IMG/VR virus record: IMGVR_UViG_3300042466_000463 | Coordinates: 1-55,010 of that record | Length of the DNA stretch: 55,010 bases | Reading direction: 5' to 3' (one strand) | Source: a virus | Shown: positions 6,333-53,823 of the stretch, in pieces | How positions within the stretch are numbered: position 1 is the stretch's first letter | How the letters are laid out: each line of letters begins with the position of its first letter | The notes under the pieces: generated by a model | Seen by the model: the letters and a program-made list of their open reading frames with translations, nothing else | Told to the model about the DNA's origin: nothing | Database searches by the model: none | Translations under genes and position numbers: made by a program

Positions 6333-6627
6333 TAGATTTTAATTTACTTGAATACAATCTTCCGTCTACCATGTCTTCTTTATTAATTCCGTTAGCGAGT
6401 TCCAATCCTTTCTTGTATCTATCTATCTCTTCATTAAGCTCATTTACTACAAACTCCTTAGCCTCCTCAAAACTTCTCAGGTACTTGCAATCGTCTTCGT
6501 AATAATCTAAATCAAACTTATATTCATCCTCATCTTTTATATGCACTTCTATTATTGCATATTTTAGTTTATCGTAACTTCCATAATCTTCATTAAAGGT
6601 TACTTCGTATGCTAATACTTTTTTCAT
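6319..6627 (-). CDS. Hypothetical protein (102 aa)
   Basis: A 102-residue acidic N-terminal half (DEDEYKFDLDYYEDDCKYL) and basic C-terminus. It may have a small beta-alpha fold like phage proteins that mimic DNA charge, but that is a guess. It shares the repeated leader with the 5974-6312 gene and lies 6 nt upstream of it. Confidence 0.7.
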   Translation of the reverse strand: MKKVLAYEVTFNEDYGSYDKLKYAIIEVHIKDEDEYKFDLDYYEDDCKYLRSFEEAKEFVVNELNEEIDRYKKGLELANGINKEDMVDGRLYSSKLKSKTSK

Positions 6628-6647
6628 AGCTTTTTATTTAGAGGTTT
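6625..6647 (-). repeat. Repeated gene leader, copy 2
   Basis: Exact copy of the 23-nt leader at 6310-6332, placed at the start of the 6319-6627 gene. The copies are 315 nt apart, in step with the gene starts, so they mark initiation regions and are not random repeats. Confidence 0.55.
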
Positions 6648-6742
6648 AGAAATTTATCCGTGTATCCCGTTTCGCTTTTTCTTGCGTCTCTTACTATCAG
6701 TATGGCAAACACTACTGACATGATGGGTATTACTACTAGCAT
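6638..6742 (-). CDS. Tiny membrane protein (34 aa)
   Basis: ATG at 6742, TAA at 6638-6640. The product MLVVIPIMSVVFAILIVRDA and a charged tail form one membrane span with a positively charged end. Its ATG overlaps the stop of the upstream 39-residue gene, a layout of coupled translation. It resembles tiny phage membrane proteins (holin-like or superinfection-exclusion type), but no family can be named. Confidence 0.5.
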   Translation of the reverse strand: MLVVIPIMSVVFAILIVRDARKSETGYTDKFLNL

Positions 6743-6855
6743 GTTACTTTCTTTTTAGTGAATAAAGATTTTACCGCAGCGCCTACAATGAACAGACCTA
6801 ACCCAATAAATAAAGTAAACAGCGTATCGTGTACGATGTGCAATAGATTTGACAT
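6736..6855 (-). CDS. Tiny membrane protein (39 aa)
   Basis: ATG at 6855, TAG at 6736-6738. The product MSNLLHIVHDTLFTLFIGLG has one hydrophobic span (about 11-28) and a Lys-rich end (FTKKKVTC). It overlaps the next 34-residue membrane protein by 7 nt. It starts with the AAGCT-ATG context shared with other genes of this block. Unknown role at the inner membrane. Confidence 0.5.
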   Translation of the reverse strand: MSNLLHIVHDTLFTLFIGLGLFIVGAAVKSLFTKKKVTC

Positions 6856-6858
6856 AGC

Positions 6859-7062
6859 TTAATTGTTATTGATGATAAAATTTAATTCTTCTTTTAACCG
6901 CTTGACACATAGCTTTTTAGTAAAGTATGCCTTATCTCCTGGCTGACCGTCTATTTTGTATTCCCATATAGTACCCCTATGAGTTCTATGGCTACTTACA
7001 GAAATAAAAAAGCCGGATACTATTGTTGTATAGTTGCCGGCTCCAACCCTTCTAAATATCAT
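6859..7062 (-). CDS. Small hypothetical protein (67 aa)
   Basis: A basic 67-residue protein with beta-rich sequence (NYTTIVSGFFISVSSH) and a Lys-rich C-terminal helix. The hydrophobic part is too short and polar to be a sure membrane span. It lies 3 nt upstream of the pair of tiny membrane proteins. No family recognised. Confidence 0.62.
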   Translation of the reverse strand: MIFRRVGAGNYTTIVSGFFISVSSHRTHRGTIWEYKIDGQPGDKAYFTKKLCVKRLKEELNFIINNN

Positions 7063-7073
7063 GTGCTTACATT

Positions 7074-7280
7074 TTAGAATCTTTTAAGTTTATTTTTCCT
7101 TACATCTTTATAGCTGTAATAATAAAGCGCACTTGATAAGTAGCCTAATATAGATGCCATTGTAATTACTCCAAAGCTAACTGCTCCGACCTCCAATGTT
7201 GCAAATAATAATAGGATAATAAATGTAGTAACTATTGCCAATGCAACAGATACTAATAAGTAAGATTGACTTTCCTTCAT
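7074..7280 (-). CDS. Small two-span membrane protein (68 aa)
   Basis: I start the gene at the ATG at 7280. The longer frame back to 7370 would run into the stem of the leftward terminator (7362-7391) and adds a poor N-terminus. The product MKESQSYLLVSVALAIVTTF has two hydrophobic spans (about 7-27 and 33-50) and a basic tail (KNKLKRF). The topology is holin-like. Function unknown. Confidence 0.6.
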   Translation of the reverse strand: MKESQSYLLVSVALAIVTTFIILLLFATLEVGAVSFGVITMASILGYLSSALYYYSYKDVRKNKLKRF

Positions 7281-7354
7281 GTGTTTAATTTTAATGATTA
7301 AATAAAATAGCGCCATACTATAATTGAATATCACGGCTTTACCGGCATGGCTAT

Positions 7355-7391
7355 AAAAAGAAAGGAGCAAAGAAATTAATCTTTGCCCCTT
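7355..7391 (-). terminator. Rho-independent terminator, leftward
   Basis: AAGGAGCAAAGA (7362-7373) pairs with TCTTTGCCCCTT (7380-7391) over 12 positions with one mismatch, with loop AATTAA. Read leftward, the stem is followed by TTCTTTTTAT, a proper U-tract. It ends transcripts that come from the structured stretch to its right. Confidence 0.75.
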
Positions 7392-7640
7392 CTAATATAT
7401 GTTTATGTTTGTTTATAGTCGACTCATATATTTTGCTATCAATATTGACCTTCGACTCGTATACCTTCACGCGTCTACACTCCTAATGTAGCCGATGCTT
7501 GACTTATATACAATTACGAACTCCCCTACATATATGTATATGTAGCGTAATGATTCAGGCACTAATGAAATACCTAAAAAAGTATTTCGGTTAATTAGTG
7601 TTTATCCTAATTGGATTCACTTTGCTAAATTGCAAAGTAA
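7392..7640 (-). ncRNA. Candidate structured RNA ending at the leftward terminator
   Basis: This part of the 537-nt gene-free stretch holds three hairpins. One pairs 7560-7566 with 7594-7600 and 7567-7573 with 7582-7588; another pairs 7526-7534 with 7537-7545; the third pairs CTACA 7475-7479 with TGTAG 7487-7491. The motif GACTYRTATA occurs three times (7421, 7454, 7501). The palindrome CTTTGC-taaatt-GCAAAG (7620-7637), with a near -7 box reading leftward (TTACTTTGC), would place a start near 7630. With the terminator at 7355-7391 this defines a transcript of about 270 nt. No family recognised and no usable open frame. Confidence 0.45.
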
Positions 7641-7748
7641 AGGGACAATAATTTCAAAGATTCAATAAAATTTATAGGCTTATGCTATCTATGTGCAGCG
7701 GCTATAAACATACGGCAATTTTTAGAGCGAAATTGCATAAACTATTGG

Positions 7749-7806
7749 GGGGTATATAAATATCCGATATTTGCAGCGGTCTATTTGCAACCGCTTAATA
7801 TACCCC
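7749..7806. other. Three-way-junction fold downstream of the 7818-8243 gene
   Basis: GGGGTATAT (7749-7757) pairs with ATATACCCC (7798-7806) without mismatch. Inside are two more perfect hairpins: AAATAT/ATATTT (7758-7763 with 7767-7772, loop CCG) and AGCGGT/ACCGCT (7775-7780 with 7790-7795). The element lies in the 3' untranslated region of the minus-strand gene at 7818-8243. It might end or stabilise that message, or be a DNA cruciform linked to replication. The GGGTATA core also occurs in the repeats at 8441-8547. Confidence 0.5.
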
Positions 7807-7817
7807 GAAAAAACGCC

Positions 7818-8243
7818 TTAATTGTTACATAATTCGGCAAAGGTTAGACGCTTATTTGCAGCGTCTTTATATGCTTGTTTTATAGCACTAATCTTAGGTA
7901 AATTTTGCATATCTAACCCTTCAACTTCGGGCGCAAATTGTACCCGAATAGCTTTAAAGATAGCTTTTGCCGTGCTTACTGAATCGCTTTTCATTATTTC
8001 GCTACCTTCAACAAGTACCGACCCCGATTCGTTTGTAACGCTCATAGCCCACTCAATAGGTTGACCCTTTGCGATACCCTTAAACATACTACCAACTAAT
8101 TGGCTAAATAAAGGAGTGAGCCCTTTGCCCCATGTGTCCGCATCGTTTACTGAAATTTCTGCGTGTCTAGTTAAGCCTGAAAAATTTGCACCTTTAAGAT
8201 TAACAAATGGTGCTGCATCGATTGTGAAATTTACTTTTGTCAT
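7818..8243 (-). CDS. Hypothetical protein next to the control region (141 aa)
   Basis: A 141-residue soluble protein with an N-terminal beta-rich part (MTKVNFTIDAAPFVNLKGAN) and a C-terminal helical part ending LTFAELCNN. No domain recognised. Its base composition and codon use look richer in G and C than its neighbours. It is the first gene of the leftward block after the divergent region, so it is likely expressed early. Structured sequence lies before and behind it. A regulatory role is possible but not shown. Confidence 0.72.
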   Translation of the reverse strand: MTKVNFTIDAAPFVNLKGANFSGLTRHAEISVNDADTWGKGLTPLFSQLVGSMFKGIAKGQPIEWAMSVTNESGSVLVEGSEIMKSDSVSTAKAIFKAIRVQFAPEVEGLDMQNLPKISAIKQAYKDAANKRLTFAELCNN

Positions 8244-8274
8244 AAAACATAATTTTTGTGCTCGTTAAAATTTT

Positions 8275-8394
8275 TGAGCGGTGAATGAATAGGGGCGCAA
8301 TGTACGTCGGGCAATAAATATAAGTCAAGGTTATTATGATGAGCGGTAAAAAAGACATGATGAGCGGTAAAAATATTTTAATAGAAGGTAAAAA
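8275..8394. repeat. 21-bp phased repeats in the divergent region
   Basis: ATGATGAGCGGTAAAAA occurs exactly at 8336-8352 and 8357-8373. The core GGTAAAAA recurs at 8387-8394, giving a strict 21-bp period over three copies (two helical turns). TGAGCGGT also occurs alone at 8275-8282. Phased A-tracts of this kind bend DNA, and such repeats typically bind initiator or regulator proteins. This supports an origin or control role. Confidence 0.65.
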
Positions 8395-8440
8395 TTGCAT
8401 GGCAAAGTAAAAAAATAAGGTAGTAATATAATGATGAAAT

Positions 8441-8547
8441 AAGGGTATAAAATGGAGCGAATAAAGTAACAATATAAGGGTATAAAGTAGCTGCAAAAAA
8501 TAGGGGTATAAAGTGGTAAGTATAAGGGTATGAAATTGGGGTATATG
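8441..8547. repeat. Five GGGTATAAA-like direct repeats
   Basis: Cores lie at 8443-8452 (GGGTATAAAA), 8478-8487 and 8504-8513 (GGGTATAAAG), 8526-8535 (GGGTATGAAA) and 8539-8547 (GGGTATATG). Spacing is 35, 26, 22 and 13 nt. They look like iterons or multiple operator sites. A minus-strand open frame over this area is only a by-product of the repeat composition. Confidence 0.6.
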
Positions 8548-8746
8548 TGTAGGGGTTAGACGCGGTAACGCAGCCAACAATTTACCAGTTGAAATGCTAA
8601 AAAAATTAGTAAAGTTTACCCAAAATTGTTAGTACTAAAAAATTTAGCAGCCATACTAAAAAAACTGGCTAATTTCGTATGAAATAAAATTACCATATAT
8701 AAAGAAACGCCATCAAATTACAAAAAATTCGTATGTGTAGGGTACA

Positions 8747-8812: not shown

Positions 8813-8976
8813 TCATACATTTCACATTTTTTCAACAACCAAAATCGCCCATATTTTACATTTTAGGGGGTACTCTATTTTACGAAATCTGTAACAAAAT
8901 TTGCCAAAATACGTAACAAAACAGGTCCAAATTCGGAAGTGATACTACCAATTATGTACAAGAATACGTACAATGT

Positions 8977-8990
8977 TTGCTATTTAGCAA
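8977..8990. promoter_or_regulatory. Palindrome, possible operator (second copy)
   Basis: TTGCTATTTAGCAA is a 6+2+6 inverted repeat. Its complement with one extra base is the same 15-mer as at 931-945. It lies in the divergent region about 220 nt before the RepL-like gene. Probably bound by a phage or host regulator that also acts at 931-946. Confidence 0.4.
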
Positions 8991-9196
8991 TACTCCGCAA
9001 TGAAATGAAACAGTTAAATAGGGTCATACTAGAAACCTATATCTTTTTGAGGTCATTTTAGAGCTTAAATTAGGTACTGTTTTAAGTCTCTATTTATTAG
9101 AAAAGTAACTATTAATATACATTAAGAAGGAAATGTTATAACTCATTGATTATTAACACTAGTATAGAAAAATTTTTTTCTTTAAAAGAAAGAATT

Positions 9197-9209: not shown

Positions 9210-9683
9210 ATGAAACAGAAAGAATACCTACAAAATCCATTTAAGCCTACAGGCATAGAGTTGAAAGAGTATATGACCTCAGATAGTGAGACAATAACGA
9301 TTGACCCTAACACAGGAGAACTCTACTCTATGAAGAAGCTTCCTAAAAATAAAAAGGTGCTTCACGATTCAAAGATATATATAAAACTGTTTCAGGACAA
9401 ATCAGACGTCTTGATGAATCTTCCATACCAAAGCATGAGAATCTTCTTTTACATATGCTCTAGAGTACGACCCATGAGAGACTATGTATTTCTCAATAAA
9501 GATGATATTACGGCTGTTTTAGGTAATATGTCTGAGCCAACATTCAGACTTGCTATTAATGGTCTTATTGAGGCTAATGTGGTTGCTAGGAAGATGGGTT
9601 CAAGTTTAGAGTATTGGTTGAATCCTGATATCATGTTTAATGGAAGTAGACTCAAGCTAGTGGAAAATCACAAAATGATTTAA
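9210..9683 (+). CDS. RepL-like winged-helix protein, candidate replication initiator
   Basis: A 157-residue protein. After a polar N-terminus it has a winged-helix region (about 75-150): MNLPYQSMRIFFYICSRV, a helix-turn-helix with MSEPTFRLAINGLIEANVV, and the ending YWLNPDIMFNGSRLKLV. The last pattern is characteristic of the RepL family of plasmid initiators and related phage regulators. It is the first gene of the rightward block and adjoins the repeat-rich region. It could start replication there or act as a transcription switch; sequence alone cannot separate these. Confidence 0.72.
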   Translation: MKQKEYLQNPFKPTGIELKEYMTSDSETITIDPNTGELYSMKKLPKNKKVLHDSKIYIKLFQDKSDVLMNLPYQSMRIFFYICSRVRPMRDYVFLNKDDITAVLGNMSEPTFRLAINGLIEANVVARKMGSSLEYWLNPDIMFNGSRLKLVENHKMI

Positions 9684-9687
9684 AGCA

Positions 9688-9695
9688 TATCTTTG
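9688..9695 (+). promoter_or_regulatory. Bacteroidota-type -7 box
   Basis: TATCTTTG ends 19 nt before the ATG at 9715 and matches the Bacteroidota -7 consensus TAnnTTTG. It probably drives the cassette of small basic proteins. Confidence 0.65.
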
Positions 9696-9714: not shown

Positions 9715-9885
9715 ATGAAAAGTACTGTAAACAAAGCCGGCAACTATACTAAGCCAACTATGAGAAAAGGCTTGTTTGAGAAAATCAAAGCAGGTACTAA
9801 AGGCGGTAACGCTGGAGAGTGGTCTGCAAGAAAAGCTCAAATGTTAGCAAAGGAGTATAAAGCTAAGGGAGGAGGATATAAATAG
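9715..9885 (+). CDS. Small basic protein of a recurrent viral family (56 aa)
   Basis: ATG at 9715, TAG at 9883-9885. The product begins MKSTVNKAGNYTKPTMRKGL, has the central pattern GGNAGEWSARKAQMLAKEY and ends KGGGYK. I recall this family from many environmental phages and large viruses. It is very basic and may bind nucleic acid, but no role is proven. It follows the -7 box at 9688 and lies 1 nt before the next small gene. Confidence 0.75.
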   Translation: MKSTVNKAGNYTKPTMRKGLFEKIKAGTKGGNAGEWSARKAQMLAKEYKAKGGGYK

Positions 9886-53756: not shown

Positions 53757-53823
53757 AATCCGGTATTGGAATCGAACCAATATCTTATCCGTACGAATAG
53801 TTTTACCATTAAACTAACCGGAT
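53757..53823 (-). tRNA. Short tRNA-like gene with a reduced anticodon arm
   Basis: Read leftward: acceptor ATCCGGT/ACCGGAT (7 bp), D arm GTTT-AATGGTA-AAAC and T arm ATTGG-TTCGATT-CCAAT, all perfect. The part between them holds only TATTC-GTAC-GGATA and a 4-nt link, so the anticodon loop would be 4 nt. Total length is 67 nt. The anticodon cannot be assigned. It sits in the leader of the primase-helicase gene, 16 nt before its ATG. Confidence 0.55.

Follow-up and report, generated by a model that had tools for sequence, protein, structure and literature searches.

Does the gene-free gap in the leftward-read part of the virus record IMGVR_UViG_3300042466_000463 (G000) encode an RNA of its own, and how might such an RNA act? 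The window, i.e. the whole stretch of DNA that we analysed, covers positions 1 to 55,010 of this 55,010-base record, and comparison with the relative G001 indicates that several kb of genome between its two ends are missing from it. Since its terminase displays 28–31% identity to those of Cellulophaga phage phi18:3 (Pachyviridae), Flavobacterium elemo phages, Maribacter phage Panino and the spring-water podovirus MW202828, we infer that the host probably belongs to the Flavobacteria. Genes point leftward up to ~8.2 kb and rightward beyond 9.2 kb; the GC skew switches at ~8 kb, and a RepL-like gene lies at 9210, close to the strand switch. The strand-switch gap beside this gene carries tandem-like repeats (ATGAGCGGTAAAA, AAGGGTATAAAATGG and variants) at 8330–8560, possibly a replication origin or a promoter array. 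Elsewhere, the minus strand of 957–1583 strongly matches a PHROG family of DNA methyltransferases (E 3.5e-64).

An earlier note had described 7355–7640 as a gene-free stretch, and indeed no open reading frame (ORF) of at least 60 aa is found in 7371–7817, while only short ORFs lie between the upstream gene and the next leftward ORF, which begins with the ATG at 7280 or, alternatively, at 7316. A structured RNA does lie at 7355–7640, but the boundaries proposed were too narrow, as conserved structure spans about 7312–7806. The same region is present in three other phage contigs (G001/L002, G002/L003 and G007/L026); L002 and L026 differ little from the window, while L003 diverges in its middle part and has 67 nt fewer. 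The locus is organised as follows.

7312–7806, minus strand: whole conserved structured intergenic block, read leftward, seen in the four-phage alignment and in most top-ranking segments of a structure scan.
7352–7630, minus strand: proposed RNA of about 270–280 nt with a putative start, supported by folding against shuffles and by comparative stems.
7818–8243, minus strand: leftward-read upstream gene for a 141-aa protein that belongs to no known family, 87–94% identity in relatives.

A search of GTDB genomes with the gene at 7818–8243 returned no match, and the structure predicted for its protein had a pLDDT of 53, too low for use. The unit at 7352–7630 on the minus strand has a core of hairpins between a promoter-like start and an intrinsic terminator, and it is flanked by two further covarying three-way junctions at 7749–7806 and 7312–7351.

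The strong hairpins reported previously were borne out by folding: the minus strand of 7345–7640 folds at −81.5 kcal/mol versus −53.9 kcal/mol for shuffled sequences (z −6.4, 0/200), and the plus strand, too, gives a stable fold (z −5.7). A sliding RNAalifold scan was run over the part of 3.0–19 kb that can be aligned with G001 and G002, about 16 kb on both strands, giving 784 segment-strand tests. The top rank among the 784 belongs to 7301–7420 on the minus strand (z −8.95, versus −4.23 on the plus strand), and most of the high-ranking segments come from the gap. Another conserved-structure signal (z ~−4.3) was observed at 9748–9870 on the plus strand; it starts shortly past a perfect TATCTTTGC promoter-like site near 9690 and may overlap a small gene. 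When the gap is read as minus-strand RNA, there are 6 G-U pairs versus 1 A-C mismatch, which fits expectation because selection on a minus-strand RNA would favour G-U.

Comparison among the relatives resolves the fold into individual helices and hairpins.

7506–7512 (5′ arm) and 7458–7464 (3′ arm), minus strand: helix P3, 7/7 pairs kept, 4 double changes.
7475–7491, minus strand: hairpin P3a, 5/5 pairs kept, 3 double changes, with the invariant loop UUAGGAG at 7480–7486.
7417–7457, minus strand: hairpin P4, 12/13 pairs kept in L003, 4 double changes, with the invariant loop GAUAGCAA at 7433–7440.
7526–7545, minus strand: hairpin P2 (CTACATA/TATGTAG), with a likely L003 counterpart (CTATGTA/TACATAG) whose homology is by position only.
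7560–7600, minus strand: long hairpin present in the window, L002 and L026, absent from L003.
7361–7392, minus strand: hairpin of the intrinsic terminator with a T-rich tail behind it, its stem exchanged in L002/L026 with 12/12 pairs kept and 5 double changes.

When folded alone, the window sequence and that of L003 each give an identical core architecture, with P3 enclosing P3a, followed by P4 and then the terminator. The arms of P3 read UGUAUAU/GUAUACG in the window versus UGCACGG/CCGUGCA in L003, and the inner stem of P4 reads AUAUU/AAUAU versus GUAUC/GAUAC. Across P3, P3a and P4, 24/25 pairs are kept in L003, the most divergent relative, with 11 changed on both sides, a count from a hand alignment that let helices shift by one base and is thus somewhat optimistic; when substitutions at the changed sites were drawn at random, a mean of 17.6 pairs was kept and 24 were reached in 24/100,000 trials. 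This core covariation comes from four sequences, effectively two divergent lineages, aligned by hand, and in the comparison of P2 with L003 the 7-nt loop was entered one base short in the script. The terminator pair counts were likewise taken from a hand alignment, the MAFFT alignment being out of register at this point. Compensatory changes, whose absence from the stems would have refuted the earlier note's proposal, are found in P3, P3a, P4, the terminator and the two flanking junctions, and we consider it very likely that a conserved structured RNA is present at the block.

Two further points of the earlier note concerned this core. The good terminator that it reported at the far end is the sole terminator-like site within 6400–8600. 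Its three copies of GACTYRTATA are exact (7421, 7454 and 7501), with no other exact copy in the window; they are not separate elements, however, because they form arms of P3 and P4 and are missing from L003.

At the other end of the unit, a near-consensus start at a palindrome had been claimed, and four sites bear on it.

7633–7665, minus strand: putative promoter-like site of Bacteroidota type, TTG-N22-TTACTTTG, conserved in relatives and equalled in ~14% of shuffled stretches.
7621–7636, no strand assigned: operator-like exact palindrome TTTGC-N6-GCAAA, a copy of TTTGCTAWWTAGCAAA, overlapping the −7 element.
8976–8991, no strand assigned: second copy of the TTTGCTAWWTAGCAAA palindrome, upstream of the RepL-like gene.
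931–946, no strand assigned: third copy of the TTTGCTAWWTAGCAAA palindrome, upstream of a leftward gene at 617–916.

The palindrome is exact and a Bacteroidota-type motif is conserved at the start, while a sigma-70 scan gives no site there and the motif is weak when taken alone. Both TATTGAATCTTTGA and TTTACTTTGC are conserved in 4/4 phages, with a spacing 5 bases longer in L003. Relatives that hold the regions of the 8976–8991 and 931–946 sites keep those TTTGCTAWWTAGCAAA copies, and a fourth copy, present in relatives only and outside the window, overlaps the −33 element of a perfect TACCTTTG promoter. In relatives, TTTGCTAWWTAGCAAA sites lie at G001 44028, G002 22388, G003 45930 and L026 2031; at ≤2 mismatches, ~0.2–0.3 matches per genome are expected in random sequence, and a few of the matches fall in coding regions. 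Since the start palindrome belongs to a conserved 16-bp motif with several intergenic copies, it is probably an operator, and TTTGCTAWWTAGCAAA probably that of a phage regulon. Since it overlaps the −7 element at the RNA gene, a repressor-like role would be the natural reading there. The operator might be owned by the RepL-like protein or, in relatives, by a DnaA-C-like protein: the relatives encode a 172-aa protein (L018:4073–4591, outside the window) just downstream of the fourth operator copy, with a weak match to the C-terminal, DNA-binding part of DnaA (E 0.0007, short of the curated cut-off).

Conserved structure extends past the promoter-terminator unit at either end.

7749–7806, minus strand: U1 three-way junction, directly past the stop codon of the gene at 7818–8243, 20 pairs all kept, 6 double changes.
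7715–7736, minus strand: U2 hairpin (GCAATTT/AAATTGC), conserved in the alignment, its stem one pair shorter in relatives.
7312–7351, minus strand: E4 three-way junction of 40 nt just past the terminator, 13 pairs, 52/52 cells paired, 7 pairs with double changes.

Slid controls gave 0 for U1, and none or almost none across U1 and E4. The loops of E4 are nnAAG and UUCRAU, and the junction overlaps the possible ATG at 7316. A CCA-like end and a UUCRA loop gave U1 and E4 a tRNA-like look by eye, a reading that was rejected, no tRNA matches being found there.

The RNA has no counterpart among the families searched. At the Rfam gathering threshold only tRNAs are found, elsewhere in the window, and no family at the block; relaxed thresholds gave a plastid psbA 3′UTR and Yfr10 on the terminator and a hairpin, far below cut-offs. 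Two tRNA genes reach the Rfam threshold on the minus strand (106–206 and 53757–53823), while ARAGORN calls none; that at 106–206 is long (101 nt), in a segment absent from the alignments with G001 and G002. DNA similarity searches of phages and plasmids at E 1e-5 returned nothing for the region, the few weak matches looking like chance or terminator-like stretches. Covariance models, which had been put forward as a check in related phages, match the RNA once per phage within this small phage group only; in the distant phages MW202828, Panino, elemoE and phi18:3 the core and E4 models gave nothing credible (best E 0.35). The core model found no match in 199 genomes of one host-like Flavobacteria family, a run with stricter filters and without a positive control. 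A pattern search with TTAGGAG-N-GATAGCAA-N-CTATAAA returned extra matches in viral contigs, which we judged to be chance, mostly coding-looking and unscored by the core model at the pattern, and 6 matches in GTDB genomes, of which 0 were scored by the core model. A literature search on Cellulophaga phage noncoding RNAs or transcriptomes found no paper.

What might this RNA do? The most likely reading, to which we give a probability of about one half, is that the block makes an operator-controlled, trans-acting phage RNA. The stretch would then be a phage noncoding-RNA gene. Host RNA polymerase would start leftward at about 7626–7630, within the palindromic operator, on which a phage regulator probably sits and times expression. 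A structured RNA of ~270 nt would be made up to the strong intrinsic terminator, its covarying stems presenting the two invariant loops, UUAGGAG and GAUAGCAA, and would most likely act in trans via both loops by binding a protein, the ribosome or another RNA. An independent small RNA, possibly a regulator or a decoy, had been suggested from the outset; its structured, leftward-strand nature is well supported, while its independent production is backed by the conserved promoter-like motif and the terminator only. An RNA role of its own is favoured because the gene directly past the terminator varies among relatives whereas the RNA is retained. No base-pairing target stood out within the phage: complements of the loops are not enriched near translation starts, and the longest antisense run is not significant. 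A 16-nt match at +10319, via a terminator arm, is reached in 4/300 shuffles and is absent from G001.

Longer transcripts must matter too, because U1 and E4, outside the promoter-terminator unit, are conserved as RNA structures, and this keeps a cis-acting leader role alive. The block would in that case belong to the RNA of the leftward early operon, its structure and terminator governing read-through into the small genes below 7316, either by attenuation or by the kind of processive antitermination known from HK022 put and the lambda late leader. We regard this main rival as possible, at somewhat unfavourable odds. Same-strand genes lie on both sides of the block, the conserved structures U1, upstream of the proposed unit, and E4, downstream of it, indicate that a read-through RNA is under selection, and E4 falls within the 5′ UTR of the next gene; that directly following gene is, however, not conserved. 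The terminator arms are exchanged among relatives without a matching upstream change, which makes a classic anti-terminator pairing unlikely, and attenuation by CTATAAA/TTTATAG pairing across the terminator was rejected, as it did not form in the predicted ensembles (the L003 sequence was entered one A short).

The hairpins could instead work as DNA, e.g. in replication near the strand switch and the RepL-like gene, and covary as palindromes. The proximity of the GC-skew switch and of that gene, together with a plus strand that folds as well, speak for such an element, but three-way junctions, invariant loops and an intrinsic terminator do not, nor does the strand bias of both the scan and the G-U count, which minus-strand single-stranded DNA would still fit; we consider it improbable. 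Even less credit is given to a small protein encoded by a 39-aa GTG ORF at 7351–7470: both the window and L002 have the frame open, the AGGAG of the P3a loop lying 9 nt ahead of the GTG, yet the L003 frame is closed by a UAG inside GAUAGCAA while the structure is retained, and terminator exchange has rewritten the C terminus in L002. Finally, the operator-controlled, trans-acting RNA can be extended to a more ambitious form, which we find rather doubtful: 7312–7806 may be one multi-module RNA island of a new kind, in which the UUAGGAG and GAUAGCAA loops would bind a host machine (e.g. the 16S rRNA anti-Shine-Dalgarno or RNA polymerase) and the two flanking junctions would tune the genes on either side.

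Few phage noncoding RNAs are backed by comparison, and this one has loops that do not change, stems that covary, clear limits and an operator-like site shared with other loci. The RNA could show how such phages act on hosts that make little use of Shine-Dalgarno sequences. It forms a new RNA family in a class already known, that of phage noncoding RNAs. The lambda 6S-type late leader (P_R'-t_R') has its own promoter, a ~200-nt leader, a strong terminator and genes beyond; the layout proposed here is the same, with a putative promoter, but in the present RNA the stems covary around invariant loops, and the genes past the terminator are small and vary. The pRNA of phi29, a structured RNA of a podovirus-like phage, resembles it in that the fold is conserved while the sequence changes; a complementary loop pair was not seen here by eye, however, and the phage group differs. 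Like the C4 and P4 CI antisense RNAs (RF01695), it would be a small structured phage RNA produced inside an operon, but it lacks an Rfam match, and its short complementary flanks (CTATAAA/TTTATAG) pair only weakly and, in L002, are broken in part. 6S-flavo and Flavo-1 are structured Bacteroidota RNAs that were also discovered by comparison (PMC2864571), and the present RNA, presumably Bacteroidota-associated as well, gives no match at or near their gathering scores. The put RNA of HK022 is ~70 nt long, with two stem-loops, lies just after an early promoter and acts on RNA polymerase (PMC9378689). The RNA described here differs in its length (~270 nt plus the flanking junctions) and phage lineage, the sequences having been compared through Rfam only, while both are phage RNAs with stem-loops, placed in a leftward early region upstream of a terminator.
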